This document shows positions 8,348 to 28,200 of a DNA stretch of 35,239 nucleotides, piece by piece (the stretch's first letter is position 1; every line of letters starts with the position of its first letter). Below the pieces are notes generated by a model. That model made no database searches. It was not told the origin of the DNA and saw only the letters and a list, made by a program, of their open reading frames with translations. The stretch spans positions 1 to 35,239 of the IMG/VR virus record IMGVR_UViG_3300008261_000191; one strand, given 5' to 3'. A program made the position numbers and the translations under genes. This DNA is from a virus.

Positions 8348-11300
8348 TTATTCAATTACTGCTTTAATTGGCTTACTAACTAAATTTTTATAAGGGAAAA
8401 TTGGTATACCTTTAACCTCTAAAGCTACTGTCATTGCTTGATCTAAACCTTTAACAAATTTACCATCTGACACATTAGTTAATGATTCAGAAGCAAGATT
8501 ATAAGTGCTATAAATTGGATGATTAACTTTATACCAAGGTTTGCCTGTCAATACTGCTCCTGTTACTTCACCTGCACCATAAAAGTTACTCATTAAGTTT
8601 ACAATAGACATTTTAGCTACATCAGTTATAACATCTTCATCATCACTATTACCCATTAAAACATATTTAATTTTATCAATTACAGCTACACCTAATGAGT
8701 TTACACCGCCAACCATAATTAATGTAGCTTTTAATTTCTTTTTAGCTTGTTCATCTTCCGGGTCAGTAGCATATTCATTATAAGCTTCAATTAACATATT
8801 AGCATTTTTACTTCTTTGTGAACTAAATAAAGTAAATAATCTAACAAGTAAATTTTTGCTTCTACCTAATGGTGTCCTTTCTATAATACCATAAGTAGGT
8901 TGCGTGTCATTTGTTACTTGCTCAAATCTTTCTTTTATTAATTCTTTTTTATTTTCAGCAGTTTCATTTGGATATTTTTCATTGATTTCATCTTTTGCTC
9001 TTGCATATATCATCATTACAGTTGCTATATCCATAATTTTAATCCACTCCATAAATTTAGTAGGATCAACATCTATTCCTATAAATTTCTTTTTAGTTCC
9101 TTCATCACTATATGGATTCATTTCATGATGTCTCATTTCTCCCTGCTCTCTATCTAAATAACCTTTAACTCTTTGTCTAAGCATTGGACTTAATTCCATT
9201 GCTTCTTTAATTAAAGGATGATTAATATCAAGCTTTCCAACACTCCAGTCTTTTCCAAATTTAACATTTGTAACATCTCCTGCTATTTCTTTTCCAATAT
9301 TAATATACTTTTTATCAAAAATAACATTGCCAAAATGTATTGCTGCAGGTACAATAGATATTGATTGTTTTATTGCAACAGATGGATTTAAACCTAATAC
9401 AGCAATTTGAAAGTTATTTAAAAATGATTGTATATATTTATTAAGTTTTGTATCTGTAACACCTCCAAGTAAAGAATAATCTTGTATATCTGTATTTAAT
9501 TGTGCAAGATAATCTACAATAGGTTTATGTTCAGGTTTTTTATCTAATGAAGAAATTAATTTTCTCATATTAGATACAGGTATTGCATAACCATAATAAT
9601 TAGATGATTCTCTAATAAAATATTCTGTAGTTTCAAAAGCATCAGATATTCTTAATGATGGTTTATTTTCTAAACTAACTGCTCTTTGTTTTAAGAATCT
9701 AAAATCTTCTATTCTTTTTGTATTTAATCTTTCTTCAATAGATGATTTTTTACCTGTAGTAATTGGATAATAATCAGCATCTAATTCTAATCCTATTCCA
9801 AGATGTGCTTCCATAACAGGTGAAATCATTTTTCCTGATTCTCTAAATACATTAGATAAACCAACAGCATATTTATTATATTCTGAAGATTCAAATTTAT
9901 TTTTAAAATCTATCCATTCATCATACCCAATACTATATTCTTCATTTGATTGTAATACATCTGAACTTGTACTTTTTAAATCAATATCACCAAAATTAAC
10001 AACAAAATATTTCTTTCCATCTTTAGTATAACGAACATAATTTTTTTGAACATGATCTTGATTTAACATTTTATATAATTCTATTGCTCTACCAACAGGA
10101 ACTTTAAATGTTTTTGCATTTAATGTAACATCAAAAGTTTTCAATTCTGACTCATCTTTTTTCATTATTGTAGAAATTTCTGCTAAATCAGATGACATTT
10201 TAGATTTATCTGTCCAAATATTTCTAACTAAATCATGCAATTTTTCTTGATATAAAAAATGCTTTTCTTCACCAACTTTAAATGCTTTATAAATTAAACT
10301 ACTAAAAAATCCATCTTGTTTACCATTAATTATTTTAGCAAATACTTTAGGCAATAAAGAACCATATAAATATTCTTTACCAAATTGATTAGATATTATT
10401 TTTCTAAATAAATTTCCTAACGATTTATGAGTTCCAAAAAAGTTAGTTCTTTTATTAGTTTCTTGATTAATTTTAGATTCTATATCTAAATTAACTTGTG
10501 TATTATCTACACCTTTTACAGTATTATCATCTAAAAATAAATAAGTATCTTTTGTATTATAAAGATGATTTAAAACAGAATAAGCATCAAGAAATCTTTT
10601 AAATTCTATAAGTACATTTTCATCAGCAACAGATTGTTTTCCAAGTAATAAATTAGCAATTTGTTGTGCTATATCTGTATTAAAATTTAAATCAACAAAA
10701 GCAGATATATCACCCGATTGTCTATCTCCTTTTAATTCTGAAAATCTTTGTTGAGTTTTTAAAACAATATCTTTTGCTATTTTATTTATTTTATCTTCAA
10801 TTGCTTTTTTTAATTCTGGTGGCGCAGTATCATAATTGTCAATATCAAATAAATCATATGCAGCTTTTGTTTCAATAATTAATCGCTGTCTAATTTTATT
10901 ATAACCAACAGATGTTTGAATATCTTTTATTTGATTAACATTAGTATCAAATTCAACTCCATCAAATACATTTTTATTATTATTAATATTTTGTCTTGTT
11001 GAATTATTTGAATTAGCCATTTGATATTGTATATGCATAGCACCAATTTCTGTAAATGTTCCAGCATTATCATCTATAGGTGCATAAAATATAACTGTTT
11101 CATTATTACCTAATGCTACCTCATATTTTTTATAATTACTATATGCACTATATTTTTTTGCTAATAAAGATGCTTTAGGATAGTCTTGTTTTAAAACACT
11201 AAACCAATCTTTCATGTTATTTGGAACTCTAAATTGTAAAGTAGGTTTTTCAAATTTATTTGATTTATCTTTTATAATAAATCCACTATTTACTAAAAAT

Positions 11301-14300
11301 CCTGATTTAGTTAATTTAGAAATTACATTCTTTTGTTCTACTGAATAAACATCATTAGCTTTAATTACATCATAAACATTATTTACAGCGCTTCTAATTG
11401 CATCATAACTTTTAGATATAATATTTTTAACTTTTTTATCATTTTGTACATCTAAATTAATGTTTTGGTCATTAATCAAAATGTTAGCTAATTCTGATAT
11501 TTTCATATTTGGATTTAATTCTGAAGGTATAACATCAGCACTTAAACCAAATAATGATTTAATTTCATTAGCAATCCATACTAATAAATCTTTAGCTTTT
11601 TCAAGTAATGTTTTAGATTTAATTTTATTATCAGCAGTTCTTCCTAATAATTCAACTAACGCTTCCATTTCTTGTTCTTCTTCAGATAAATTAGAATATT
11701 TTTCTTTTACATATTTTAATATTTCTTTTCCATCTTCAGATAATTTTAATTCATTAATTAATGAGTTATATAATTCAATATTAGAATCTTTAATAACATT
11801 AATAAATGGATGTGCAAACTCATGAAATGGTGTATCAGATTTTACATATGCTTCATTAATAATAACCTTGTTATTTTTTCTATCAAAAGCACCTGCAAAT
11901 TTTTGATTTGGATCATTAATAATTTCAAACTGAACACCAAACTTAGATGATAATCTTCTTAAAATTCTTTTTAATCCTTGTATGCTTTTACTAATATTAT
12001 CACTTACTTGAAATTGTTCACTTCCATTACCTTTAATATTACCTGATGATTTTGAAATAGTATTAAATAAGTATTTAGAATTAGATAAATCTTCATTTTC
12101 TTTTACAAATTTAATTACTTGTTTTCCAACAATTTTAAAATCACCTACTTCAGATATTTCACTTGCATTTTGTTTTTCTAATGCAAATGGGGTATAAGTT
12201 TTTTTAACTTGAACAGGAATATTAGGATTATATTTACTTTCATAAATCAAATTAGCTACTTGATTTTCTACATCAACTTTATATAATAATTTAGATTTTG
12301 TTGTAGCATTTTCAACTTTGAAATATTTAAATCCTTTTAATTCTTGTTTTAATTTTATTTGTGTTCTGTTTTCATTTGGATTTATACCATATGATAATGC
12401 AGAAGGTAAAAGTTTAACAGATGATATATTATCTATTACTAAAGCATCATAAAAATCTTCATTCATTTTAAAATCTTTAGATGCTTCAATGTAATTTTCA
12501 AATACATAATCAGGTAATAAATCAGTTATGTTATTAGAACCTTTCATTAATCCATTTTGATATATTGCATATTCAATAAGATTGTTTTGAATATCTTGTG
12601 GCAATTGATTGAAAAGTTCTGTTATTTGTTCTTTATCTACATTTATTCCTGCATCAGTATTAATTAATCCATTTGGTACAATAGACATATTATCTGGATT
12701 AATTCTTACTAATTTAAACCAATCATAAATTAATTCTTGTGCATCATCAATTGTAAAATCAGAATCTATTTCATTTTCATCACTTAATGAATTATAAACA
12801 GCAATTGGATTTACATCTGCAAATATTTTATTAATAAAACTATTAAAATAAAACATTGCAGATTCTTTACTTTGAAAATTTAATTTACTTGTTTTTTGTG
12901 CAATATAAGCTGTAGCTGTTTTACTTACTAAATCTGATTTTTTAGTAGTATCAATTTCCAAACTTGCTAAAGTTCTACCAAACTCTTCAGAATTATCATT
13001 TAAATTAGAATAATTATTATATACTTCTTTTAATGTATTTAATGTTTCTTTATATGTTATCATTAAAGGTCTATTTAATACATTTTGAAAGTTTAGATAA
13101 TTTATTTTTCCTAACTTATCATAACTTCTTAATATATTATTTAATTCAATTAAGTTTGAAGGCATTTTAGCATCTAATTGAACTACAGATGTTAATGGTG
13201 CTAATCTCATTGATTCATCATATATAGACCAAAATTGATTTACTATATCTCTATATGTTGTGCCATTAAAAGTTTTTTCAACATTGTTTTCATATTTAGC
13301 TTTAGAAGCTTGTTTAATATCTAATAATGAGCCAAATACTTTTCTGTTATTTAAAAACATATTTCTAATATCACTAATAGGTTCACATTTTAAGAACTCC
13401 ATTATTTCAACATCAGAATATCCTAAACCAAGTAATACATTTACAACACCAACATTTTCTCTAATGATGCCTGTTTCATGCATTCTATTTTCTTTAGTAT
13501 CATCTAAAGCAAGTTGTAAAAATTCTGCTGCAAAAGCTTTACTTTTTGATGTAAATGAATCAGCAGATTTTGCAAATACTTTAATAGGCTTTGTTAATTT
13601 TACATTTGCTAATGTTAATATATCATTTACTTTTGAACCTACTGCAAATGCGCCTATTAATCTTGAACTTTCTTTTAAACTTGCAGATTTTTGCACTAAA
13701 CCTTCTATACCACCTATATGTTTAAATTGAACATTATAGTTTGTAGATTTGTTCGTAGTGTCTATTGCTTTTTTTAAATTCTCTACATCTAATTCTTGTT
13801 GATATCTATCCCAAACTTTAGAATCTGTCATCATTTCCCATAAATCTTCAAACACTTCATTTTCTAATAATTCAATTCTTGATTTAGGTGTTTTATTTAA
13901 TTTAATAGTAAACAATGTATCTCCATCATTATCTGCATTTGATTGATAAATCCATTCAGGTGCTACCTCAACAACATTATTTCCTTCTTCTGTAAAACCA
14001 CTTACAGTAGCAACAATATTAGTCATAAAGTCACTATTTGGAATTCTTGATAATATTAGTCTATCACCTATTTCTGCAAAACCTTTTGGAACTTTTACAG
14101 TTGCAGGTTTAATTTTATCTTTAGATTTTTCCATCCAAGTTAAGCTATCATCATAACAAACTGATTGAGATAATTTAGCACCTGGCAATTTGTATTTTGT
14201 TGTTTTTGTAAATACAGAAGATATATAAGATTGAACTTTATGATAAATATCATAGTGATCTACTTTATCAATTCCTGTTTCTTGTTTACCTTTTATAAGT

Positions 14301-17300
14301 TCAAGTATTCTTGTGCCTAATGATTTATTATTTAATCGTGAAAATTTTTCAACATCAGAAATAACTTTGTTTTTATTTTCTAAATATTTCTTAGCTTGTT
14401 TTTGTTTTAAATTAGTTATTTCTGATAATTTAGATTCAATTCTTTGAACATATTGCGGTTGATGTGGAGCAATCTTTAATAATTGTGTACTTAAACTTGT
14501 TTCTTCTTCTTCTGAACTTACATCTTTATTAATATTAAATTGAACACCAAAATTTTTAGGCACAAAAGAATAACTTGCTTCTAAATTAGGATTAGATGAA
14601 TTATTAATTAAGTCATTTAAATCATAAATTGTATTTGGTAATTTAGATTTAATTGCAGAATCAAACACAATAAATATTGGCGTATTTGGATTATTTTCAG
14701 ATAAATTTTTTAATGCTAAATTTATGTCTGCTTTTACTTTATCTTGTGCTTCAATATCTTCTTGTGTTCTTCCTTTAAATGCTATTGTTGTTGTTTTAAT
14801 ATCTATTAAATCACCATCAATAATATCATTTAATCTTGGTTTAAAAAAGTTTTTATAGTCAATTAAAGCACCACCAGATTGTTGAATTTTTTCTGCTACA
14901 AAATCATTACAAAAAGATTGAGAATTAGATGCACCTTTTGCAATATCTTTAACAACAAAGATTTTTGCTTTTTTATTTCCAAGATATAATGAAGGTACAG
15001 GTGAAGTCATACCTGCTCCACGCTTTTCTCTTTCATCTATTTTTAAATTACCATTTTTATCTGTTTGTATATTGTTTAAATTACCTGTAACAAACTGAGA
15101 AGTATGTATTCTATGAATAGCATCATTTAAAACATATAAGGTAAATATTTTATTTAATACTAAATTTTCATTTTCTAACTCTGCTTTATTTTCTGCTACC
15201 TTATCAATTTGTTCAATAATTTTATTTTTAATTGAATTTTTAATTTCTTGTGGTAATTGATTATATACCTTAATTAAATATTCTTTATCTTTTTGTACTT
15301 GCTCTATTGTAGGTATAACTTTTCCAATTAACTGTGGATTATATTTAGATTTAATTTCTTCTAATAAATTAACCAATTTATTTGCATCTCTTAAAATTGG
15401 AACATTAATTAAAGCTTGAAAATCTCTTGCACCTAAAACACCCAATGTTTGATTATAACTATCTGAAAATAAATAACCATTTAAAAATTGAGAAAAGTGC
15501 CAAAATGCTTCATCATCTTTATGAATAGCACTCCAATCTTTTGCAATAGCTTTATCATTTTCTAAATATTCAAATCCATCTGTATGAGATATAATAGGAA
15601 TAAATGTATCTGTTAATTTTTGAAAATGCTCACTATATATTTTACCAAGGTCTATTGATTTTAATCCTTTAAACATTGGTAAACTTTCTGCTTTTTTAGT
15701 TGCATTAGAATCACTAAAAGTATCAGTAAAAAATTTATGAAGTAAACCAGGTATTCTATATGCTCTTTGTAAATTACCTAATACATTTTTAAACATTGAT
15801 GTATCAGCTAAATTAGATTTATAATTATACGCAGCAGTTCTTAATGAATTTCTTATAGTTCTATAATCATTACTTAATAATGCTTCTGCAAATTGAATAT
15901 AAGCTAATTGAGCATTTTGTTTTGATGTATCAATATTATTTTTATCTAATTTACCTGAAACAAACATATCAGGTGTAATATCATATTTAGTTAAAACTCT
16001 TATACTTTGTTGTAAACTTAAAAATGATTTAGACAATTTTTGTCTATCTAATTTTTGTTTAAATGCTTTTTTAATAGCATTAACTTCTATTTCAATATTT
16101 TGAATTGCATTTTTTCTTATAGCTTTAGCTACATCATTTACATCTGCAACAGATTTATTTAAAATAAAATTATCTACAATAGATTTTATTAATTGTTTTG
16201 GAGTAAATAATTTAAATGATTCTTTTGTTTCAATTGATTTTTCTGTAACAGATAATTTTAAAAAATTAATTTTTTTAATGTTTTTTAATTGCTCTATAAC
16301 AGGATTTGCAATTGAATCAGGTAAAGTTATTAAAGCGTTATATAAATGCTTAGCAATAACTTTATTTACATTAGCATGATCTAATTCAGCTCTTTCTTTC
16401 AATCTTTCTAAGAATCCTGATTTAGATTTTGTATTAGTATTTATTGCACTTACAATTCCATAGATATGATTTGCATCTATTTTATAACCTTCATAACTAT
16501 ATAATAGATTTAATATATCTCTAACATTAGCATCTATATCATCCTTTTCTATTGTATCAAGTGTATCATCAATAAATTTATCTTTTTCTTCATCAGTTAA
16601 TTTATCATAATAACTATCGGCAACAAAATCTTCTAAAACTATTCCATTTAAATGATTTAAAGCATTTAAAACATAAGTTTGATTTTTTTCTACAAACTCC
16701 TGTAATGATAACTTTGGATATGCAGCAGAAGATAAATTAAATAATACATCTCTAAAAACTGCTTTAGTAAATTGAATATTACCTTTTAATTTTCCTTTAT
16801 CTTTTTTATAAGCTAATGCTGTTAAAATAAAACTATTACGAACAATATTAAATCCTTTATCTTGTTCATATGATATTTGTTGCTCTTTTCTACCAATTAA
16901 TAATGATTTATCAACATTAGGAATTTTATTATAAGCTAATTTCATTGCAATTATATTTGCAATATCTTCTGCTTTAGCTGTACCTAATACTGCTTTTAAT
17001 CTATTCCAAAAGAATTTTAACCAATCTAATATTTTTTCAATAGTAGTGCCATCTAATTTAGTAGTTATAACATCTAACGATTGTTCACCAACTAATTGAA
17101 TTAATGCTTCTTCTAATAATTCTTCTTCATTATAATTAGGATATCTTTCTTTAGCTTCTGAATAATATTTTGTTTTCTTTATTAATTCAGTACCATTTTT
17201 ATAAATATTTGAGTTTTTAATTAATGGAACAATTAAATGAGAAAACTCATGAAGTATAGTATCTTGTCTTGCTTCATTTTTATTAATCTGTATACCATCT

Positions 17301-20269
17301 TCACTTAACTGACCTAATAATGTTATACCTTCATCAGTAGCTAAATTTTCTAATACCTCAACAGGTATTGATGGGTACATTCTTTTTAATTCAGATAATA
17401 TATTATTAAATAGTTCTGGATTATCTACTATCCTTTGTTTTTCACTACTTAATTGTTTTTTCTTTTTAGTATTATTTAAATCTTGAAATAATGCTGATGT
17501 GTTTAAAATATTATCTAATTCAGCTTTTTGTTCATCTGTTAATTGATTTTGTATATTCATTAAATCATTAATTTGATCTAATGCAGATAACTCTAATGTA
17601 TCATTAGTACCTTCAGGTTCTGTTGTTTTTTTAACTTCAGTTTTTTTAGACTCTTGATATGCAGCAGAAGATTCACTTAATTTAGAAGCTTGAATAAATT
17701 CTTCTGTTGGAATTTGCATAAACTGTTCTTTAGTTCTTTCAACAGTTTGTTCACCTAAAAATTTTTTTCTTTTATTATAAGAATTTAAAGCGTGTGACCA
17801 ATCAGAATAATATTCTTTTATTACATTTTCTTTTTCTTCAAATGCTTTTTCATCTAAAGGTTTTTGTTCAGATTGAATTTCTTCTGTTGATATTACTTCA
17901 GGTGTTGTAGTTGTTTTTTCTTGAATAGGTTCTAATGTTCCTACTTTTTCTGTTGTTGTTTCTTTTCCTGCAACTTCTTCAATAGGCGTAACTTCAGACT
18001 TTCTCGCTGTTTCGGTTGGTTTACTTTGCTTTTCATAATTAACTTGTTTTAATTGAAAGTTTTGTATTTCAGATTTTGCTTCACTTAATATATCAATAAC
18101 AGAATCTATTTGTTCTGTAGTATGGGTTCTATTTGGTGAATTTCTATAAGCTTTTAATTTTTTAAATTGATTGTCTAAAGCTGTTATTGATTCTTCTATT
18201 TGAACAGGGTCAACAGGAATATTCATATCAATCCTATCTATAGTTTTATCAACTATATCAGGCATGTCATCAAATAATTCAGCATCACTTCCTAAGTCCG
18301 TTCTAATAGCTTGTATTTGCGCTATTTCTGCATCTCTTAATCTTCTTTGTTCAGCTATAGCATCTTTTACTTGTTCCTCTGTATTTATAATTGGTTCTTC
18401 TTTTGTTTCAAAGATTCCTTTAACTGCTTCAACACCTTTGCCAATTGTTTCCTTAACAGTATCTAATAAACCTTTTTTCTTTTCTTCAGCTTGTATAGTT
18501 TCTTGTGATGCAGGTGGTAATTCTTTTAAAACATCAAATATTCTATAATTGTTTAAATCAACTGTATTATTAGTTTTATTAATATCTTGAATTGCTCTAC
18601 CAACTTCATCTAATCGTTGTTTCTGCCTTACTATTTTAAGTGCATTTAAATCTTCTAACTCTTTAGGTAATACTCCTTCAATAGATGTTTGTTCAATTTC
18701 ACCTCTTAAAGTTTTAGCAAAATGTCCAAGACTAAATATTTGATGTCTTGCAGATGCGTTTGAAATATCTGATAAATTAGTTTTAGAAACCATTTCAGCA
18801 GCACTATCTATTATAGAGTTTAATTCTGCTTTATCTTCATCAGGATTAGATAATGTAGAAACAACATCTTTCATTTTAGAAACTTCTTGTTCTAATTTTC
18901 CATTTTGTTTAGCAATATCTAAAGCTTGTGTAATTGTATTTGCTCTTAATCCTTTAACACCTCTTGATGTCATAGAAAAAGAACCACCAATTAATCCACC
19001 ATAAAATCCTTCTTCTAATGCTTGTTTAAATGAATCCCATGAGGTTAAATCAGCACCAAATTTACCTTTACCAACTTCTGCTTCCTTATCAGCAAAATGT
19101 TTATCGTAAACTTCTTTACCTGCTGTTTCTAATAAAGATTGTAAAAATTCAGTTCCAAATTCAGCACCTGCACCTTGTAATGCCTTAACACCATAATCTG
19201 CTGCTCTTACTTTTAACTCTTTTCCTAAACCACCAATAATACCTTTTTTACCTAAATCTTTTGCATACTGTTCACTTAAATCACCTAATGCAACTTTTAA
19301 TGCTCCTGATGAAAATTCTTTACCACTTACACCTTCTGTTAATATTTTACCTAATGATGCTTTTAAAATATCTTTTTCTATTTTACCTGATGCAGCTTTT
19401 AATCCTGCACCTAATGCAGCATCCATACCAGCTTTTTCAAGTAAACCTATCATTGGTGCTAATGTTAACCCTAATGCTGTTGCTTTTTGAACATCAAGAC
19501 CATTTTCAATACCTGCATCTACAATAGAAGGAAAAGCAGTAATAGATGAAGCACCAAATGCTAATGCACCTGAACCACCTGTAAATGCTCCAATACCTGC
19601 AGCTGTTAACATTGGAATTAAACTTCCAACACCTTGACCTAAACCTGCTGATAATGACCTTATATCTCCTGTATCAAAAAAACTTTTTTGACCCATTTGA
19701 GAAACATACATTTCATTTCTATCTGCCCATTTATCAGTTTCTTTAATCCAATTATCTGCCCATTCTCCTGCGCCAAATTGTTTTGCAATTGAAGGTATAA
19801 CATATGAAGTACCTTTAGCTGTACCAATAGCACCCATATTATATGCGGCAGATTTAAAATCATCCCAAGCACTACCTTCATATTTATCATAATGAGGAAC
19901 AATACTTTCAGGCAAATTTGCAGCAATATCTAAAGCAGGTGTCGTTTCTCCAAGTCTTTTTACATTTTGCTTTTGAATAACTTCATCAAGTATTTCAGCA
20001 GGATTACCATATGCTTTTAAATCATCTGATATTTTTTGCTCTAATTCAGGAGTTAAAATAGTTTGTTGAACAGGTTGTTCAAATTGAGATAATTTTGGTA
20101 ATGGTATATTACTAATACTTACAGATGGTTGCACTTGTGGAGTTTCATTTTTAAATTCAAATGGTTTCTCTTGTTGCATACCTAAAGATGGATTACTTAA
20201 TAATTCTTGTTGTAAATCATTAATATAATTTAACTTTTGTTCTGCTGATGAATTTATTTTTTCAGGCAT
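8348..20269 (-). CDS. Giant virion RNA polymerase fused to two zincin-like domains
   Basis: This 3973-residue protein is probably injected with the DNA to transcribe early genes. In order it shows: Gly/Ala-rich hydrophobic segments (about 205-250 and 263-292); a charged coiled region; a disordered Thr/Glu/Lys linker (about 745-830); an HEFSH zincin motif (1007-1011); the polymerase core, with LPG (2028-2030), R-x-P (2075-2077) and DNDGD (2113-2117); a second zincin motif, HEFAH (2816-2820); and a C-terminal region with LNPSVAIKQS (about 3625) and a hydrophobic tail that resembles large polyvalent phage proteins. DxDGD is the metal-binding signature of two-barrel RNA polymerases, and crAss-like phages such as phi14:2 carry a virion polymerase of this class. 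It is much larger than the roughly 2200-residue phi14:2 protein. The start at 20269 lies 8 nt after the preceding stop. Processing into smaller chains is possible but not shown. Confidence 0.85.
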   Translation of the reverse strand: MPEKINSSAEQKLNYINDLQQELLSNPSLGMQQEKPFEFKNETPQVQPSVSISNIPLPKLSQFEQPVQQTILTPELEQKISDDLKAYGNPAEILDEVIQKQNVKRLGETTPALDIAANLPESIVPHYDKYEGSAWDDFKSAAYNMGAIGTAKGTSYVIPSIAKQFGAGEWADNWIKETDKWADRNEMYVSQMGQKSFFDTGDIRSLSAGLGQGVGSLIPMLTAAGIGAFTGGSGALAFGASSITAFPSIVDAGIENGLDVQKATALGLTLAPMIGLLEKAGMDAALGAGLKAASGKIEKDILKASLGKILTEGVSGKEFSSGALKVALGDLSEQYAKDLGKKGIIGGLGKELKVRAADYGVKALQGAGAEFGTEFLQSLLETAGKEVYDKHFADKEAEVGKGKFGADLTSWDSFKQALEEGFYGGLIGGSFSMTSRGVKGLRANTITQALDIAKQNGKLEQEVSKMKDVVSTLSNPDEDKAELNSIIDSAAEMVSKTNLSDISNASARHQIFSLGHFAKTLRGEIEQTSIEGVLPKELEDLNALKIVRQKQRLDEVGRAIQDINKTNNTVDLNNYRIFDVLKELPPASQETIQAEEKKKGLLDTVKETIGKGVEAVKGIFETKEEPIINTEEQVKDAIAEQRRLRDAEIAQIQAIRTDLGSDAELFDDMPDIVDKTIDRIDMNIPVDPVQIEESITALDNQFKKLKAYRNSPNRTHTTEQIDSVIDILSEAKSEIQNFQLKQVNYEKQSKPTETARKSEVTPIEEVAGKETTTEKVGTLEPIQEKTTTTPEVISTEEIQSEQKPLDEKAFEEKENVIKEYYSDWSHALNSYNKRKKFLGEQTVERTKEQFMQIPTEEFIQASKLSESSAAYQESKKTEVKKTTEPEGTNDTLELSALDQINDLMNIQNQLTDEQKAELDNILNTSALFQDLNNTKKKKQLSSEKQRIVDNPELFNNILSELKRMYPSIPVEVLENLATDEGITLLGQLSEDGIQINKNEARQDTILHEFSHLIVPLIKNSNIYKNGTELIKKTKYYSEAKERYPNYNEEELLEEALIQLVGEQSLDVITTKLDGTTIEKILDWLKFFWNRLKAVLGTAKAEDIANIIAMKLAYNKIPNVDKSLLIGRKEQQISYEQDKGFNIVRNSFILTALAYKKDKGKLKGNIQFTKAVFRDVLFNLSSAAYPKLSLQEFVEKNQTYVLNALNHLNGIVLEDFVADSYYDKLTDEEKDKFIDDTLDTIEKDDIDANVRDILNLLYSYEGYKIDANHIYGIVSAINTNTKSKSGFLERLKERAELDHANVNKVIAKHLYNALITLPDSIANPVIEQLKNIKKINFLKLSVTEKSIETKESFKLFTPKQLIKSIVDNFILNKSVADVNDVAKAIRKNAIQNIEIEVNAIKKAFKQKLDRQKLSKSFLSLQQSIRVLTKYDITPDMFVSGKLDKNNIDTSKQNAQLAYIQFAEALLSNDYRTIRNSLRTAAYNYKSNLADTSMFKNVLGNLQRAYRIPGLLHKFFTDTFSDSNATKKAESLPMFKGLKSIDLGKIYSEHFQKLTDTFIPIISHTDGFEYLENDKAIAKDWSAIHKDDEAFWHFSQFLNGYLFSDSYNQTLGVLGARDFQALINVPILRDANKLVNLLEEIKSKYNPQLIGKVIPTIEQVQKDKEYLIKVYNQLPQEIKNSIKNKIIEQIDKVAENKAELENENLVLNKIFTLYVLNDAIHRIHTSQFVTGNLNNIQTDKNGNLKIDEREKRGAGMTSPVPSLYLGNKKAKIFVVKDIAKGASNSQSFCNDFVAEKIQQSGGALIDYKNFFKPRLNDIIDGDLIDIKTTTIAFKGRTQEDIEAQDKVKADINLALKNLSENNPNTPIFIVFDSAIKSKLPNTIYDLNDLINNSSNPNLEASYSFVPKNFGVQFNINKDVSSEEEETSLSTQLLKIAPHQPQYVQRIESKLSEITNLKQKQAKKYLENKNKVISDVEKFSRLNNKSLGTRILELIKGKQETGIDKVDHYDIYHKVQSYISSVFTKTTKYKLPGAKLSQSVCYDDSLTWMEKSKDKIKPATVKVPKGFAEIGDRLILSRIPNSDFMTNIVATVSGFTEEGNNVVEVAPEWIYQSNADNDGDTLFTIKLNKTPKSRIELLENEVFEDLWEMMTDSKVWDRYQQELDVENLKKAIDTTNKSTNYNVQFKHIGGIEGLVQKSASLKESSRLIGAFAVGSKVNDILTLANVKLTKPIKVFAKSADSFTSKSKAFAAEFLQLALDDTKENRMHETGIIRENVGVVNVLLGLGYSDVEIMEFLKCEPISDIRNMFLNNRKVFGSLLDIKQASKAKYENNVEKTFNGTTYRDIVNQFWSIYDESMRLAPLTSVVQLDAKMPSNLIELNNILRSYDKLGKINYLNFQNVLNRPLMITYKETLNTLKEVYNNYSNLNDNSEEFGRTLASLEIDTTKKSDLVSKTATAYIAQKTSKLNFQSKESAMFYFNSFINKIFADVNPIAVYNSLSDENEIDSDFTIDDAQELIYDWFKLVRINPDNMSIVPNGLINTDAGINVDKEQITELFNQLPQDIQNNLIEYAIYQNGLMKGSNNITDLLPDYVFENYIEASKDFKMNEDFYDALVIDNISSVKLLPSALSYGINPNENRTQIKLKQELKGFKYFKVENATTKSKLLYKVDVENQVANLIYESKYNPNIPVQVKKTYTPFALEKQNASEISEVGDFKIVGKQVIKFVKENEDLSNSKYLFNTISKSSGNIKGNGSEQFQVSDNISKSIQGLKRILRRLSSKFGVQFEIINDPNQKFAGAFDRKNNKVIINEAYVKSDTPFHEFAHPFINVIKDSNIELYNSLINELKLSEDGKEILKYVKEKYSNLSEEEQEMEALVELLGRTADNKIKSKTLLEKAKDLLVWIANEIKSLFGLSADVIPSELNPNMKISELANILINDQNINLDVQNDKKVKNIISKSYDAIRSAVNNVYDVIKANDVYSVEQKNVISKLTKSGFLVNSGFIIKDKSNKFEKPTLQFRVPNNMKDWFSVLKQDYPKASLLAKKYSAYSNYKKYEVALGNNETVIFYAPIDDNAGTFTEIGAMHIQYQMANSNNSTRQNINNNKNVFDGVEFDTNVNQIKDIQTSVGYNKIRQRLIIETKAAYDLFDIDNYDTAPPELKKAIEDKINKIAKDIVLKTQQRFSELKGDRQSGDISAFVDLNFNTDIAQQIANLLLGKQSVADENVLIEFKRFLDAYSVLNHLYNTKDTYLFLDDNTVKGVDNTQVNLDIESKINQETNKRTNFFGTHKSLGNLFRKIISNQFGKEYLYGSLLPKVFAKIINGKQDGFFSSLIYKAFKVGEEKHFLYQEKLHDLVRNIWTDKSKMSSDLAEISTIMKKDESELKTFDVTLNAKTFKVPVGRAIELYKMLNQDHVQKNYVRYTKDGKKYFVVNFGDIDLKSTSSDVLQSNEEYSIGYDEWIDFKNKFESSEYNKYAVGLSNVFRESGKMISPVMEAHLGIGLELDADYYPITTGKKSSIEERLNTKRIEDFRFLKQRAVSLENKPSLRISDAFETTEYFIRESSNYYGYAIPVSNMRKLISSLDKKPEHKPIVDYLAQLNTDIQDYSLLGGVTDTKLNKYIQSFLNNFQIAVLGLNPSVAIKQSISIVPAAIHFGNVIFDKKYINIGKEIAGDVTNVKFGKDWSVGKLDINHPLIKEAMELSPMLRQRVKGYLDREQGEMRHHEMNPYSDEGTKKKFIGIDVDPTKFMEWIKIMDIATVMMIYARAKDEINEKYPNETAENKKELIKERFEQVTNDTQPTYGIIERTPLGRSKNLLVRLFTLFSSQRSKNANMLIEAYNEYATDPEDEQAKKKLKATLIMVGGVNSLGVAVIDKIKYVLMGNSDDEDVITDVAKMSIVNLMSNFYGAGEVTGAVLTGKPWYKVNHPIYSTYNLASESLTNVSDGKFVKGLDQAMTVALEVKGIPIFPYKNLVSKPIKAVIE
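11570..11962 (-). other. Zincin-like domain 2 within giant protein
   Basis: Residues about 2770-2900 hold HEFAH at 2816-2820 and a downstream M-E-A-L with E2869 as candidate third zinc ligand. After HExxH the chain continues with an IKDSN motif and ends with a Trp-containing amphipathic helix (LLVWIANEIKSLFG). The layout mirrors domain 1 throughout, which supports a duplicated gluzincin-type metallopeptidase fold. Activity is not proven. Confidence 0.65.
13895..14212 (-). other. RNA polymerase beta-prime-like double-psi barrel
   Basis: Residues about 2020-2125 contain three landmarks in the order seen in cellular beta-prime. The first is KYKLPGAKLSQSV, comparable to the Gly-Arg-Ser barrel strand. 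The second is LILSRIPNSDFM, comparable to the R-x-P-T-L-H strand. The third is NADNDGDTLF, comparable to NADFDGDQM. The three Asp residues at 2113, 2115 and 2117 are the expected Mg2+ ligands. Confidence 0.85.
16955..17392 (-). other. Zincin-like domain 1 within giant protein
   Basis: Residues about 960-1105 hold HEFSH at 1007-1011 and a downstream EEAL with E1054 as candidate third zinc ligand. An IKNSN stretch follows HExxH, and a Trp-rich helix (ILDWLKFFWNRLKAVLG) closes the domain. It is related in sequence to domain 2 on the other side of the polymerase core. Confidence 0.65.
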
Positions 20270-20277
20270 ATAAGTAA

Positions 20278-21276
20278 TTATTCTACTTGTTTATTAATAA
20301 TATTAAAAATTACAGATGGGTCAACACCATATTTTTTTGCTAATTGATTAACAACATTGTCATTTTTATCTTGTCTGTATTGACCATATGGATTACCATA
20401 ATTTGATTGCTGATATTTTTCTGTCATAGGCAATGGTGCGCCTTGTGGTGCTAATACAGTTGCACCTGAATATTGTTCGTATTCTACTGAACCAACTGAT
20501 TGTCCTGTTTTAATACCAGCTTTTGTATTAATTAAATCTGCTGAATAAGCATCTGTAGGAACTCTAAATCCTACTTTAATTCTATATTTATCATTTGCCC
20601 AATCAGTATCTATTCTTTCAGCACTTTTATTTTCTTCCCAAGTTTTATCTAAATAATCCCATGCACCAAGAATACTTCTTTCTATATTTAAATCTTCTGC
20701 TTTATCTTCATCAATTTCTAATTCAGCAATCATATAAGGAATTGACTTACCTGTTTTTGGGTCTTTAACTAATTGTATATTACTATATACATTTTTTAAA
20801 TCATATTCATTAGGTGAAATTCTTAAACCCTTTCCATCGTTCATGTTAATAAACATTTCAGAATTTAATTTTCCACTCCAACTACCATCAACATTTTCTT
20901 TTAATCCCATAACATCTAAAGCTGCTCTTTGAACATCTTTACTTAAAGGATTAGAACCAATTATAATTTTTCTTTCTCTATTTCCTTGTTGATCTTCCCA
21001 AGTAGTATGTCTTATGTTTTGTTCTGAAAAAGATAATTTATCTCCTGTCAATGCCATTTGCCATACAGGTGCAAATAAATTAGCTTTATTTAAAGCTGAT
21101 GAATATTTACCATTTTTATCACCATACATTCTTTCAATACCTTTCCAATCAAAATCATCTATACCCCACCATAAATTAGTAAAACCATCACCTCTATTAG
21201 CTTTATTTGCTCTTTCTCTTGCAATCTCTGGACTTTGACCTTCAGCTATTAAAGCTGCTTCTAATTCAGCAGTAGA
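20278..21276 (-). CDS. Virion cargo/ejection protein, 3' part (frame-broken)
   Basis: The open frame extends 49 codons upstream of the first ATG (21129) to an in-frame TGA at 21277-21279. Those codons look fully protein-coding (for example AALIAEGQSPEIARERANKA and LWWGIDDFDWKG) and contain no ATG, GTG or TTG. This indicates that the segment is the continuation of the upstream gene in the -1 frame rather than an independent gene. From ATG 21129 the product would be 283 residues; fused to the upstream part it would be about 489. The C-terminal half has a Gln/Tyr/Asn/Gly-rich segment (about residues 230-250 of the 283) and ends in a small helical domain. It sits between the lysozyme-bearing protein and the polymerase, so it is probably an internal virion protein ejected with them. 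The family is not recognised. Confidence 0.65.
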   Translation of the reverse strand, partial: STAELEAALIAEGQSPEIARERANKANRGDGFTNLWWGIDDFDWKGIERMYGDKNGKYSSALNKANLFAPVWQMALTGDKLSFSEQNIRHTTWEDQQGNRERKIIIGSNPLSKDVQRAALDVMGLKENVDGSWSGKLNSEMFINMNDGKGLRISPNEYDLKNVYSNIQLVKDPKTGKSIPYMIAELEIDEDKAEDLNIERSILGAWDYLDKTWEENKSAERIDTDWANDKYRIKVGFRVPTDAYSADLINTKAGIKTGQSVGSVEYEQYSGATVLAPQGAPLPMTEKYQQSNYGNPYGQYRQDKNDNVVNQLAKKYGVDPSVIFNIINKQVE

Positions 21277-21746
21277 TCACCTTGCATTACAGTAACTGAT
21301 GTTTTTTTAATTAATTTTCCTTCTGATAAATCTTTTGCATATGCATCAATAATGTTTTTATTATATAATGCATTATTATATTCTTGTGAATTTAAAACTG
21401 AATTTTTATAATCATTTAAAGTTTTAGCACCACCTGTTAAAAAAAATCGTTTAACATCACCACCATTTTCTTTAATGCCCTGATATACCATTTGTTTAGC
21501 TTGTTCTTCAACACTTTTAACTCTTTCTATATCTACATCGGAAAATTTGTTGATGTCTTGTCTAACAGTATTTAAAAAGTTTTCAGTAGCTTCTTGATTT
21601 TTAGCTTGCTCTAATGCTCTTTGTTCAGCCCTTCTTTCTAATTCGGCTTGATACTGAAGATTTTTATCGGCTTGTGCAACTTTAGTTTGATAGTTGCTAT
21701 TACCAACAATCTGATTAAAAAGATTTACATCTAAGTATTGATTCAT
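21261..21746 (-). CDS. Virion cargo/ejection protein, 5' part (frame-broken)
   Basis: This 161-residue frame is strongly helical. Residues about 25-55 look like a Glu/Gln/Arg/Ala coiled coil (LERRAEQRALEQAKNQEATE), followed by further helices. It ends GDLLLN and then TAG, the only TAG stop of any gene in the window. A coding-looking frame in -1 overlaps its last codons, starting right after a TGA at 21277-21279, and continues into the 3' part. Inserting one T to read GAT TCT would join the two smoothly (GDSTAELEAAL). It is therefore best read as the N-terminal half of one roughly 489-residue protein. Whether this is a sequence error, a real mutation or programmed frameshifting cannot be told here. 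Confidence 0.65.
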   Translation of the reverse strand: MNQYLDVNLFNQIVGNSNYQTKVAQADKNLQYQAELERRAEQRALEQAKNQEATENFLNTVRQDINKFSDVDIERVKSVEEQAKQMVYQGIKENGGDVKRFFLTGGAKTLNDYKNSVLNSQEYNNALYNKNIIDAYAKDLSEGKLIKKTSVTVMQGDLLLN

Positions 21747-21807: not shown

Positions 21808-24800
21808 TTATTTTTTTAGAAATCTACTAAAAATATTTTTATTATCATTTTGTTTATTTTGTTCTTTTTCAGTAGCAATTTCTTCTTGTGCTTTTATAAT
21901 TTGTTCTGAAGTTCCACCCATATTTTTTACTAATGAAACATTATACATTTGATTTGCACTTTGTTCATTTTTTAATTGTTGATTCATTAACTTTTGATAT
22001 AATGAACTTGGATCTTCATAGTTTTTGTAATAAGAAATGTTATCTTTTATTTTATTAAATGTAGCACCAATTAATCCTGCTTTTAATGCTTGATTTCTTG
22101 CAGCAGGTTCAAAAACATTATTATTCCAAATCTTTTGAGTATATTCTTCATCTTTACTCAACCAATTAGAATAGTCAGTTATATTTTGCCTTCTTTGTGC
22201 AGCATCCATTGCTGTTAATTTTAAATCAGCATCATATTTCTTTTCTGCAGCACCTTGCAATGAACCTAATACAGCTTGTCCTGATGTACCATATCTACCA
22301 ATTAAAGCTACATTTGTTGCATATGTTCTTTCTGATTGTCTTTGATATAAATCTCTTTCAGATTCAGATAAACCAACATTTTGTCTTGCTTTTAAAATAT
22401 CTGTTTGTGCTACCCATGCATCAGATTTCTTTTGTTGTGGTAATGGTTTAGAAGCTTCATTATATGCTAATGCCATTCCTGTCATATCTAAAACAGTATT
22501 CCAACCACCAAGTTTATTAAAAGTTTCAACTAAACCTGATTGTTCTCTTTCATTATCTCTATCTGCTAAAATACTTTTTACTTGTGCATCAGACATTAGA
22601 GAAACAACATTATTAGTTTTTGTTTTTGTTTCTACATCAATATCTGATATAACATCATAATCTTTAGATTCTTGACCCATTAAATCTTCAAATTGTTTTT
22701 TTCTTTCAGATTGTAATGTTGAAGTCACATCTGTTTCATATGTTTTCCATTTAGCAATATCAGATTCAGGAACATAATCTTTATCTATAAATAAAGGTTT
22801 ATCTTTTTCTATTTTAATATTAAAATTTTTAGGTGGAGTATAAGACATTAAGTTTTTAGCAACATCTTCAGATTTAAATAGATATTTACTTGGGTCATCA
22901 TAAAAACCTGCTGCTGCTAATTTTTGTTCTGTTTCTTTTTGTTGTGGCGTTTTATTTTTATCACCAAATTTAATATCAGTTAATTCACCTTTTGCAGCTA
23001 AATTATTAACAGTTAAATTTTTGTAAACATCATTAATTGGTTTTGTTAATGTTTCAAAAGTTTCTAAATTTTTAGTATACTCATCAGTTGAAATAGAATT
23101 TTTTTGCAATTTTATTTCTAAAGATTTTGATGCTGCTTTTTTTAATTTATCAGATTCTAATTTAATAGAACTTGCAATTTTTTGATCTTGTTCTAATAAC
23201 CAAGTATTGTATCCTTTTAATACTCCTTCTAATTGATTTAAATTTTGATTAGAATATTTATCAAGATATACTATACTTTCACCTTTTTTCTTTGCTTCAA
23301 TTTGTTTAATTAATAAATCTCTATCTGCTTTTGCTTTTTTATATTTAGCATCTTGTTTTGATTCAAAAAAATTTTCTGTTGCAGATTGTTTTATAAATTT
23401 TTCAAATGCATCTAATTCTTTTGTACTATAATTAGAACCTCTTTTTGTAGCTTCTTGATATTTTTTATATTGTTCAGAATAAATTTGTCCTTCAGGATTT
23501 GTTTTAAAACCTTCAGTAATACTTTTATTTATTTCTTCTTGTGTTAAAGGTTTATTGGCTTGTAATGCTTTAATCATAGTGCTATAATTTACTAAAGCTT
23601 TATTACCATATTTATCACCTTCATAATAACTTTTATTAGAATCATCTTGTGGAATAGCCGCCCATTCTGCTGATAATCTTTTTACAAATTCATCTTCATT
23701 AATATTTCCTTTAACATAATCAACTGCACCTCTTTTTTTCAATAAATAATAAAATAACTTATCTTGATTTTCTTTTGTTAAAACAAATGTTTCTGGATTT
23801 TCACCTAAAGCTTTTAATGCTTCATCACCTGTTGAACCAATAATTTGATATGCACCAATAGCTTTATTTCCATGTTTTCTTCTTGCTTCAGCATAAGTCA
23901 TTTTAGTTAAATCTTCATCACCTTTAGATTTAACAACAGAATTATATCCTGCTGAACCAGCTTCTATTTTTAAAATTATTTTTTGTAAATTTTTAATAGA
24001 ATCATTTTTAGCAAGTAAATCAAAATCATTTAATCCTAAATTATTTGTTCCTGATTCAGCATATTGTGGACTTGAATTATTTCTATGATTTATTAATGAT
24101 TGTTTTACAAACTTTCCTAATAATGATAAATCATTTTTTTGTGCTAATTGTTCTATTTTTTTAGTTTCTTTTACTGAAAATACTTCTTCACCACCTTCTA
24201 CTTCTGCAATAACTTTTCCATTTTTATTTAAAACTTTAACTCCACCATCTTTATGACTTGGTGCTGAATTTGGTATTTTACCACCATTTTCAAAAGTAAC
24301 TGCATTTTCAAATGCTAATTCATTTCTTTTATTTTGAGACATAAAATCTTGTTCTTTATATGAATCTTCTTGTATTGCTTGTTCTAATTGATTTAAAGCA
24401 AATTTTGTACCTTCTTCAATAGCTGTTTGTTGTAATAAATCTTTACCACCTGAATTATACCAAGCTTTATTAAATTCAGCAATAGATATATTAGGGTCTT
24501 TAAATTTTAATTTAGATATATAATCTGCAGAAACTTGTCCTTTAGAACCTGATATAACATTTTTAATATTATTGTGTAATAATGCTTGTTGTTTTAATTG
24601 TGCTTCAGTTAATTTAAAAGCTTCTTTAACTGTAGGTTGTGTTACATTTTGTACAACATTACTTGCTTCAGCCATTGGCATTGTAACATCTTTAACAGGT
24701 CCAACATTTGATACTAATGCAGATGTTTCAGTTGCAGTAGATGCTAATGGTGGAATTGGTTTCATTCCTGCTAATCCTGTAGTTGCAGTATTAGTTACAG

Positions 24801-25281
24801 TTGTTGCTGTTGGTACTGTACCTGCAGTTCCTGCAACTGCTTTAGCCGCTGTTGTACCTGTTGTTGCAGCAGTAGTTGTGGCAGGTGCTGTACCTGCACC
24901 TAATAATGATGCACCACCTGCTCCTGCTAAACCAACACCTGCACCAATTAGTGTGTTTTTTAAAACATCACCTTCATATCTATCTACTACTTTTTCTTTT
25001 TCTGTTCCTTCTAAATTTTTTTGAGTTGCTCTTTGACCCAACATTGCACCTGTATTTAATGCAAGTAAACCTAAAGATGCTCCACCTGTAAATGGTGCAA
25101 ATCCTACTGCAGCAGCTGCAACTGCACCTTGAATTAAACCTGAACCTTTTAATCTATTTCCATATCTATCATATCCTGCAGATAATGCAGCAAGTCTTTT
25201 CATTCCAGATAATTTAACAAGTCTATCAGGTGATAAATTTTCTTGTTTTTCAAGTTCTAATATTTTATTAAAAGTAGCCAT
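21808..25281 (-). CDS. Ejection protein with lambda-lysozyme-like domain
   Basis: This 1157-residue protein probably enters the cell envelope during infection and opens peptidoglycan. Residues 48-82 and 110-130 are Gly/Ala-rich and hydrophobic, and 130-185 is an Ala/Thr low-complexity stretch; both suggest membrane insertion. An EGGEEVF segment follows at about 362-368. Residues about 425-575 resemble the lambda endolysin (GH104-type transglycosylase) fold: candidate catalytic E440 (KIEAGSAGYNS), AIGAYQI at 474-480, then LG, Q-D-x-L, KKRGA and an AEWAAIP motif in the same order as lambda. The rest is highly charged and helical, with many Lys/Gln/Glu. It begins 1 nt after the muzzle-like gene stops. 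Its place next to the cargo gene and the giant polymerase fits an ejectosome comparable to T7 gp14-16. Confidence 0.75.
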   Translation of the reverse strand: MATFNKILELEKQENLSPDRLVKLSGMKRLAALSAGYDRYGNRLKGSGLIQGAVAAAAVGFAPFTGGASLGLLALNTGAMLGQRATQKNLEGTEKEKVVDRYEGDVLKNTLIGAGVGLAGAGGASLLGAGTAPATTTAATTGTTAAKAVAGTAGTVPTATTVTNTATTGLAGMKPIPPLASTATETSALVSNVGPVKDVTMPMAEASNVVQNVTQPTVKEAFKLTEAQLKQQALLHNNIKNVISGSKGQVSADYISKLKFKDPNISIAEFNKAWYNSGGKDLLQQTAIEEGTKFALNQLEQAIQEDSYKEQDFMSQNKRNELAFENAVTFENGGKIPNSAPSHKDGGVKVLNKNGKVIAEVEGGEEVFSVKETKKIEQLAQKNDLSLLGKFVKQSLINHRNNSSPQYAESGTNNLGLNDFDLLAKNDSIKNLQKIILKIEAGSAGYNSVVKSKGDEDLTKMTYAEARRKHGNKAIGAYQIIGSTGDEALKALGENPETFVLTKENQDKLFYYLLKKRGAVDYVKGNINEDEFVKRLSAEWAAIPQDDSNKSYYEGDKYGNKALVNYSTMIKALQANKPLTQEEINKSITEGFKTNPEGQIYSEQYKKYQEATKRGSNYSTKELDAFEKFIKQSATENFFESKQDAKYKKAKADRDLLIKQIEAKKKGESIVYLDKYSNQNLNQLEGVLKGYNTWLLEQDQKIASSIKLESDKLKKAASKSLEIKLQKNSISTDEYTKNLETFETLTKPINDVYKNLTVNNLAAKGELTDIKFGDKNKTPQQKETEQKLAAAGFYDDPSKYLFKSEDVAKNLMSYTPPKNFNIKIEKDKPLFIDKDYVPESDIAKWKTYETDVTSTLQSERKKQFEDLMGQESKDYDVISDIDVETKTKTNNVVSLMSDAQVKSILADRDNEREQSGLVETFNKLGGWNTVLDMTGMALAYNEASKPLPQQKKSDAWVAQTDILKARQNVGLSESERDLYQRQSERTYATNVALIGRYGTSGQAVLGSLQGAAEKKYDADLKLTAMDAAQRRQNITDYSNWLSKDEEYTQKIWNNNVFEPAARNQALKAGLIGATFNKIKDNISYYKNYEDPSSLYQKLMNQQLKNEQSANQMYNVSLVKNMGGTSEQIIKAQEEIATEKEQNKQNDNKNIFSRFLKK
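23551..24009 (-). other. Embedded lysozyme-like (GH104-type) domain
   Basis: Residues about 425-577 of the 1157-residue protein follow the lambda R order: acidic catalytic residue in a helix end (E440), then G-x-YQ-I, an LG turn, Q-D, a KKRG helix and a W-x-x-[IL]-P motif before the last helix. It is a recognisable match by pattern, not confirmed by a search. Confidence 0.65.
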
Positions 25282-25282
25282 A

Positions 25283-28200
25283 TTACATTCGTTTTTGAAT
25301 TCTAAAAATTGAATCTACAGATGTTAAATTAAAAACTTTATTATCTGCATTTTTTATTACTAATTTAAAATTTAAAAAGTTACCATTTAAACGATTTAAA
25401 ATGTTTTTTTCTCTATATGGTACTTTTAGATTACCTAATTTATAATGTGCTCTATTACTTGTGCTATATCCATTATTATTAACTAATTCTTCACCTATAT
25501 TAACTAACTGTTCATTATTGTCAGTTTTTAAATAAAGCTTATCAATTATACTTAATGAATCTACACCAATATTTAAAGAACCAGTATCAAAAATTTTTGT
25601 AATATTTGGATATTTATTAATATTAAAACCTAATAAAGAATAAAATAATTTCTCATAATATTTACCCTTTACAGATTTAGTATGTAAATACAAATCATTA
25701 TTATTTGCATTATAATTTTGTGTCATAAGTTTATTACCATATGAAAATGCAAACTTTGGATAAAAAGTGTATTCACTATGAAATACATTTAAATCTTCAT
25801 TATAACTTATTGTAAGCGCATTAGAAGTACCCTGTAAAGTTGGTTGGTCTGTAATAAGATATTTTACAGTATTATCTGTATAAGGAGGTCTAATTGTAAA
25901 AAACACATCATTGTTTTCATAATCATAATAAGTAATTATACCTGCACCCCAATCAGAATTAGTAGAAATATAATCTTTATTAATTACACTATTTAAATAT
26001 GGTGCAATAAAAGAATGAATATTTCCAATATCCGATAATATATTTAAACCATCTTGACCAAATTTTAATAGTTTTGTTCTTAATGCATCAGCCCAATATA
26101 TTGCTCTATCAGTTGCATAAACACTATATTGATGTTGAGTTCCAAAAGTTTTAGAAATATAATCAATGCCATTCATTAATGTAGGTTCACCTAATGTTAC
26201 TTGCTGACCTTCATTTGCTGAAACTACAGCTCGTTCATTAATTCTTAATTTACCAAATGCATTTCTTTGTATTGAATAAGCATTATTAGCAAGTAAAGCA
26301 CTACCTACAATTTCACCATAAGATGCATCTAAATCAAAATTACTTAATTCTTCAAACTCTCTAAATCTATCAACTTTTTCAGAATAAGGTTTCTTTTCAT
26401 TTGACCAATGCCATCTTGTTGGAAAATCAAACTTAGCTATATAATCACTTGGCTGACTAAAAAAATTATATACATTATGTTTGTGAAACAAAATAGAATT
26501 AACATTAAATGTTTCATTTCTTGGTGGTTTAGCATTACCTCTTGGATAATATATACCATTAGCCATTTTAGTATTAGAAGGATCTTCACCTGCTAAATAC
26601 TTTGTTGTTTTAGTACCAACTGATGCATGAATAGGAAAGTTAGATTTTTCAGCTAACCTCATTGAAAGATTATATTTGCTTTCAATAGGTACATATGCTG
26701 CAACAGAATAGTCATCATGTATATTCATGTCATGTACACTTTCTTCTTCGCTTATGTTTGCAAAATCACCTTCATCATTTAGCCTATTAGAAGGCATTAA
26801 TCTACAATATCCAAAAAAATCTACATAACAATCACCACCAAATACTTCAACATTATTAAATATTTTTCTTCCTGTAGATGTGTTTACATGAACTAATATT
26901 TGAGAATTTATTTCTTGATAATGACCTGTTGTTTCAAAAATATTATTTTGTAAAGCTAACTTACTTAATCCACCATATTGTGCAGATATTTCTCTTTTTA
27001 AATTAACTATTACTTGTCCTGCTCTATATGATGGTGTAGTTCCACTTGCATGATGATCAAATAAAATAAATGGTTTATCTAATTTTGCAAATAATGAATA
27101 AGGAAAATTCATTGCATTTAGCAATTGTTTTTCTTCACCTGTTGCAGAACTGAAAGTAAATGTATTATAATATTTAAATGGATAACTATTATCAGGACCA
27201 CCCATTGAAGAAATCATTGAAAAATATTTAGAACCTTCAATTGGTTTATCCCAACCAACAGACATTAATATATCTATAGAATAAGATTCATTATAATAAC
27301 CTCTTGTAGAATTAGACCATGTTTGACCTGGCTGTTGAAAATATGCTGTATTTTGCTGATTATAAAATTTATGTATATGATGGTCTTGTGTCCAATTTAT
27401 ATATGATTGATTTAACTGACCTGAATATGAACTAAAAGCTGTAGATGCAATTTTAATTTTATCTGTACCTTTATTAATACTTGGTACAGTTTGCGTAATC
27501 ATATAATCAGGAAAATCAATTGTATAATATTGTGGTGCTAATGTAATTAATCTTGATTCATCTGTTTCTTCTCCTTCTGCTGTATCACCACATAAAATAT
27601 CTACAAGTTTTTGATTGTAAAAATTTGAGTTGTATATTTCAAGTGATGGAACCCATGCATTTGGAAAAGGTGCAACAATATTAGTTACAGTACCTTCTTG
27701 ATATTTTCCTCTATAAACGCATTGGTTAATAATACCTTGCATTTTTATAGTTTCGTTAGCTTCATCTCTTGGAACTCTTACAATCTGAAACCCACTAACT
27801 TTATCTTGTATATCAGTAATATCAATACCACTAAACATTACACCCATAGTCCTTGCATAAGCAATATTAGGATATGTACCGCTATATTTTGGCACATTCA
27901 TATATTGGTCTTGTTCTATAAGTAAATCGCTTCCTATAGTGTTAAATTGGTAATTAGTTGATGTAGCAAATTTATAATATGGTTCGCCTGAAGATATATT
28001 GTATACAAAAGAACCTGATGCTATTGTTCCATCTTCACGAAGCCTTTCCCATGTTAATGTAGGATTGCTTGTACTATTATTTTGAAATTGTGATGGAAAC
28101 TTAACATCAGCAAGATGTGTTGCAAATAATGGATTTCCTTTTTTGTCAAAAAATACAATACCAAATCTATATTTTTCATCTCTAAAATATCCAGAATATA

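Follow-up and report, generated by a model that had tools for sequence, protein, structure and literature searches.

A divergent crAss-type two-barrel RNA polymerase between duplicated zincin-like modules in a 3973-residue phage protein

A 35-kb virus contig from IMG/VR with 27% GC (35,239 nt, analysed as a whole and called the window in the following) contains one open reading frame of 3973 residues, which raises the question whether it encodes an RNA polymerase, of which type, and how the phage might use it. With regard to the frame itself, the first-pass annotation, which had reported a single ORF with a series of polymerase landmarks, proved right: the ORF is real and runs on the minus strand from ATG to TAA, and LPG (residues 2028-2030), R-x-P (2075-2077) and DNDGD (2113-2117) lie where they had been placed. 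The ORF and its polymerase features are as follows.

8348..20269, minus strand: giant RNA polymerase ORF, 3973 aa (open reading frame)
12830..15832, minus strand: two-barrel RNA polymerase core, residues 1480-2480 as aligned and modelled (profile and fold)
14795..14842, minus strand: invariant K1810 and K1825 of the first (beta-like) barrel, aligned with phi14:2 K1012 and K1027 (family and profile alignment)
13895..14188, minus strand: second (beta-prime-like) barrel, about residues 2028-2125, with G2030 and R2075-x-P2077-x-S2079 (alignment)
13919..13933, minus strand: D2113-N-D2115-G-D2117, metal-binding loop (motif and conservation)

DNDGD is the sole DxDGD of the 3973-aa chain, and shuffling the chain yields a D.DGD pattern in 5% of cases, i.e., the motif by itself is weak evidence. 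The landmarks are strong because they are conserved within a family of 17 members. The giant protein itself yielded no relatives when used as search query; these were reached via a capsid protein search, which provided 80 IMG/VR loci, and by using the C-terminal three quarters of the protein as query against 29 of their contigs. Homologues were present in 10/29 contigs, and a profile of these homologues found more members, including a more distant subfamily. In full-length members, DxDGD is located around 2100-2700, and nearly all of them also have HExxH around 940-1460.

Invariant in the 17 members, which show 18-25% identity to the window protein, are K1749-R1750, K1810, K1825, K1874 and Q1929 as well as G2030, R2075, P2077, S2079 and D2113-x-D2115-G-D2117. 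This also holds for D107 in the numbering of the core (residues 1480-2480), where full-chain positions result from adding 1479 (e.g., K331 is K1810 and D634 is D2113). Of LPG, G2030 alone is conserved in the window and 16 relatives. Given that most of the chain lies outside the core, one may think of a catalytically dead polymerase fold that serves as a structural or tape-like protein. We consider this highly improbable, since no catalytic residue of either barrel varies at the stated divergence.

Single-sequence searches with the polymerase region found nothing in Pfam, PHROGs, NCBIfam and PDB, and translated BLAST (tblastn) gave no match for it in 50,697 annotated phage records. Profile-profile comparison, in contrast, clearly relates the protein to phi14:2-type polymerases, as had been proposed: the 17-member family profile matches that of 11 crAss-like polymerases (phi14:2, crAss001, Carjivirus, crAss002, Rudgehvirus, cr1_1, cr50_1, cr106_1, cr128_1, Dulem 41, Fpv1) at 99.8% with E 5.6e-28 over 753 columns that cover both barrels, while the reversed profile and an unrelated crAss profile, used as controls, both stay at 0.1%. 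The alignment is in register, i.e., K1810/K1825 are opposite phi14:2 K1012/K1027 and D2113/2115/2117 opposite D1361/1363/1365. The 11-polymerase profile retrieves PDB 6vr4 at 1.7e-286. The family HMM matches polymerase ORFs in 10/14 crAss-like phage records (E 2e-14 to 5e-5), among them crAss001 gp50, phi14:2 gp077 and Carjivirus gp44, and has no match in cr10_1, cr60_1, cr113_1 and Fpv1.

The predicted fold agrees with this relation. For the AlphaFold2 model of residues 1480-2480 (pLDDT 73.7, pTM 0.74), the top PDB match in Foldseek is 6vr4, the phi14:2 virion polymerase (E 7.8e-20, TMq 0.65), followed by the two-barrel polymerases of Thermus phage P23-45 and P32/P74; the best BFVD matches are crAss polymerases. 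A T7-like single-subunit fold, which N4-type polymerases have instead of the two barrels, was not encountered, i.e., every significant fold match of the core is a two-barrel polymerase. Profile and fold support the ORF as a divergent relative of the crAss-like, phi14:2 gp66-type two-barrel RNA polymerase, which crAss-like phages from gut and sea package and inject for the transcription of their own genes. In a tree of the core, all family members separate from the 11 crAss polymerases (100/100); the family forms the sister group of all sampled Crassvirales polymerases.

The proposed crAss-like late-region setting is likewise borne out, both by muzzle and capsid proteins over the curated Pfam cut-offs and by a collinear gene order. 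The neighbours of interest are the following.

32827..34197, minus strand: major capsid protein (Crass_capsid), 456 aa (Pfam E 6.5e-42, over cut-off)
25283..29452, minus strand: muzzle protein (crAss_MUZ), 1389 aa (Pfam E 3.8e-110, over cut-off)
21808..25281, minus strand: putative C1 cargo/ejection protein, 1157 aa, with a lysozyme-like stretch (position and PHROGs match)
20278..21746, minus strand: putative C2 cargo gene with broken frame, ORFs 21261-21746 and 20278-21129 (position)

The major capsid gene, the next two genes, the ring/hub genes and the muzzle gene are collinear with crAss001 and phi14:2, and as in these two phages, two cargo-like genes come between the muzzle gene and the polymerase. 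The products gp076-078 of phi14:2 are annotated as structural by MS (record annotation), and crAss001 gp47, gp49 and gp50 are present in virions (PMC10172136). A non-virion polymerase that is made during infection for middle or late genes would be compatible with homology alone, which cannot distinguish the two kinds, and P23-45 has both (PMC10770324). We nevertheless regard it as very unlikely, since the gene directly follows muzzle and cargo genes as those of virion polymerases do, its N-terminal module is common to the virion protein gp078, and its C-terminal module resembles injected polyvalent proteins.

Some observations concern the neighbours themselves. The C2-position gene just upstream of the polymerase is read in two frames (161 and 283 aa), while in relatives it is a single ORF of about 500-630 aa; the cause is a sequencing error or a real disruption. 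The lysozyme/endolysin-like stretch of the 1157-aa C1-position protein spans residues 466-592 (phrog_34252), and the protein has no detectable match in crAss001 or phi14:2. The product of 1052-6784 in the window is fibre-like, 1910 aa long, and has a match of peptidase type (phrog_15439) mid-protein; its relatives among the fetched loci are few.

The first-pass annotation had also described most of the chain as lying outside the polymerase core, with hydrophobic and disordered regions on both sides. The proportion is correct, i.e., the core makes up about 1/4 of the chain, but the remainder is not mere hydrophobic or disordered filler, since it holds conserved and partly duplicated modules.

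18860..20269, minus strand: N-terminal module, residues 1-470, with hydrophobic segment 213-254 (profile relation to the phi14:2 gp078/crAss001 gp47 N-terminus)
17477..18859, minus strand: variable E/K/P/T-rich linker, residues 471-931 (composition and relatives)
16727..17476, minus strand: zincin-like module 1, residues 932-1181, with H1007-E-x-x-H1011 and invariant E1054 (motif and conservation)
11540..12037, minus strand: zincin-like module 2, residues 2745-2910, with H2816-E-x-x-H2820 and invariant E2869, paralogue of module 1 (motif and profile)
8351..11539, minus strand: C-terminal helical module, residues 2911-3973, phrog_28077, polyvalent-like fold (PHROGs and fold)

Hydrophobic segments do occur on both sides of the core (213-254 as well as 3622-3640 and 3846-3868), but low-complexity sequence is found mainly on the N-terminal side, with an E/K/P/T-rich stretch at 701-900. 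The linker measures 461-885 aa across relatives. Residues 1-470 align in hhalign with the N-terminus of the virion protein gp47/gp078 (94.1%, E 1.3e-7), and the same module is also present in the giant polymerase ORF of cr1_1 (E 3.6e-18). It may have a role in packaging or in passage through the membrane or during injection. The polymerase ORF at L115:6778-17580 carries additional domains inserted on both sides of the core, namely a ParB-like one in the linker and, after the core, a cpYpsA SLOG domain (E 6.5e-23).

The polymerase core is placed between duplicated HExxH zincin modules. By profile, module 2 matches module 1 at 98.1% (E 9.7e-14), i.e., the two are paralogues, and it also directly matches residues 939-1428 (iE 2e-6). 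HExxH is kept in nearly all members (L123 is without the first), and 43-49 residues further on follows a conserved Glu that is probably the third zincin ligand. Compared with curated families, the modules reach SprT-like at E 0.11, below the cut-off. They may process the chain, as has been proposed for zincins of polyvalent proteins and N4-type polymerases (PMC5512222). The 4509-aa polymerase ORF at L139:2390-15919 has HExxH solely after the core (3442), which suggests that a zincin may stand on either side.

The C-terminal 1060-1100 aa (approximately) match phrog_28077, and the model of residues 2774-3973 (pLDDT 60.8) resembles the C-termini of phage polyvalent proteins with BFVD E-values down to 4e-16. 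That is, features of polyvalent proteins are present, namely several unrelated enzymatic domains including a zincin in one chain and a polyvalent-type C-terminal fold (at a pLDDT of only 61); the curated polyvalent-associated Pfam domain has no match in the chain. We also considered that the C-terminus corresponds to the crAss subunit gp49/gp076, such that all three crAss polymerase proteins would be fused. This was rejected: no profile link between module and subunit was found (0.7-0.9%), and enriched profiles gave no support.

In a sister clade, zincin 2 and the C-terminal module are encoded by a separate adjacent ORF of about 1100-1200 aa, whose start lies anywhere from 17 bases ahead of the polymerase ORF's end to 26 bases past it. 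One continuous ORF is found in the window, L108 and L109. The core tree joins these three in one clade (100/99) and the split members in another (100/98); several end branches are long, and the order within the fused clade is unsure. Since most relatives encode the C-terminal part by a gene of its own and a neighbouring window gene has a broken frame, the joining of polymerase and C-terminal module could be taken for an assembly artefact. The same fusion is, however, present in two independent contigs (L108, L109) at about 30% identity and within the same well-supported clade, which is why we rejected this explanation; its probability is next to nil.

Our preferred reading is that a crAss-type polymerase is very probably packaged in the virion, ejected, and used to transcribe the first phage genes. 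It builds on the observed homology of both barrels, the conserved catalytic residues, the fold, the gene neighbourhood and the conserved flanking modules, while packaging, ejection and early transcription are drawn from homologues and by analogy with phi14:2 (PMC10136315), N4 and P23-45 (PMC10770324). The polymerase would be made late in infection and stored in the capsid as cargo. It would then leave through the muzzle, partly unfolded and either ahead of the DNA or along with it, and would refold to transcribe the first phage genes without the host polymerase. We infer that the 3973-aa product is a virion protein; a number of crAss-like polymerases have shorter or divided genes, such that the chain may not be intact at this length in the virion. 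A further point against this reading is the C-terminal module, for which profiles detect no relation to the crAss subunit gp49/gp076.

The chain could also be a precursor that is cut by its zincin-like modules in the capsid or after injection, such that the polymerase acts as a separate piece. We take this as possible but lean against it. It would be in accordance with a core flanked by duplicated HExxH modules with a conserved distal Glu, with the sister clade, whose separate adjacent gene for the C-terminal part indicates that separation is tolerated there, and with the zincin processing proposed for polyvalent proteins and N4-type polymerases (PMC5512222). On the other hand, no cleavage site or product was seen, and gp96 of P23-45, also with a metallopeptidase domain, is full-length in virions (PMC10770324). 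Slightly more doubtful is a self-processing injected polyprotein with a crAss-type polymerase between duplicated zincin proteases and a polyvalent-protein C-terminus. If true, cleavage by the zincins, either while the chain is packaged or once it has entered, would free the polymerase from injection and effector modules.

Coming back to the packaged and ejected polymerase as the favoured reading, the closest comparison is phi14:2 gp66 (GenBank gp077, PDB 6vr4). Both carry the two barrels in a single chain with the catalytic residues in register, have the fold in common, and are encoded after muzzle and cargo genes. The phi14:2 protein differs in its length of 2180 aa, in DFDID versus DNDGD of the window, in being without HExxH in the same chain, and in N- and C-terminal partners that are separate genes (gp078, gp076). 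The window protein is indeed nearly twice as long (3973 vs 2180 aa), as had been pointed out, but this does not distinguish it, since crAss-like polymerase ORFs of 4070-4774 aa are found in GenBank. Giant crAss polymerases of up to about 6000 aa are a known hallmark (PMC10136315).

Other systems share further parts of the architecture. Carjivirus communis gp44 (4070 aa), crAss002 gp33 (4245 aa) and the Rudgehvirus protein (4098 aa) are likewise giant single-ORF crAss polymerases with a further subunit, but their N-terminal partner is a separate gene, and the ORF ends of crAss002 and Rudgehvirus match the gp49/gp076 subunit, which the window C-terminus does not. In the Suoliviridae cr1_1 (4551 aa) and cr50_1 (4774 aa), HExxH also precedes the polymerase in one chain, for cr1_1 together with the N-terminal module; unlike in the window, the third large protein is a separate gp49-type gene. 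P23-45 gp96 (5002 aa) combines a two-barrel virion polymerase with metallopeptidase and membrane domains in one giant virion protein (PMC10770324), but there the polymerase is clamp-less and forms the N-terminal part of the tail tape measure; its fold similarity to the window core is weak (E 1e-4). The N4-type virion polymerase is alike in its working, i.e., a giant injected chain with polymerase and zincin modules (PMC5512222).

In what could be found, new are the lineage, the zincin duplication that flanks the core, and the polyvalent-type C-terminus that replaces gp49 and is fused in one clade only; single members may have been described earlier among environmental crAss-like contigs. The known range of the crAss-type virion polymerase is widened by this lineage, whose branch lies beside all named Crassvirales families sampled. 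The core appears to stay constant while the parts next to it are swapped, i.e., a gp47-like N-terminus, the zincins, and a C-terminus of gp49 or polyvalent type, in fused or split form. The roles of the flanking modules, especially of the zincins, can thus be tested by comparison.

L132, L134, L137 and L138 make up a third, separate IMG/VR subfamily, in which the polymerase is encoded by a single ORF of 3916-3969 aa. Like the window protein, they join zincin 1 and polymerase in one ORF of about 3950 aa, but end in a gp49-like C-terminus (98.8%, E 4e-17); their N-terminus is weakly gp47-like (64%). Finally, a 2482-aa structural protein of the Tenacibaculum phage Gundel_1 (Pachyviridae; L161:8005-15453), which is without the DxDGD motif, carries a zincin that shows a weak relation to module 1 (iE 0.005) and has a fold similar to the C-terminal model of the window.
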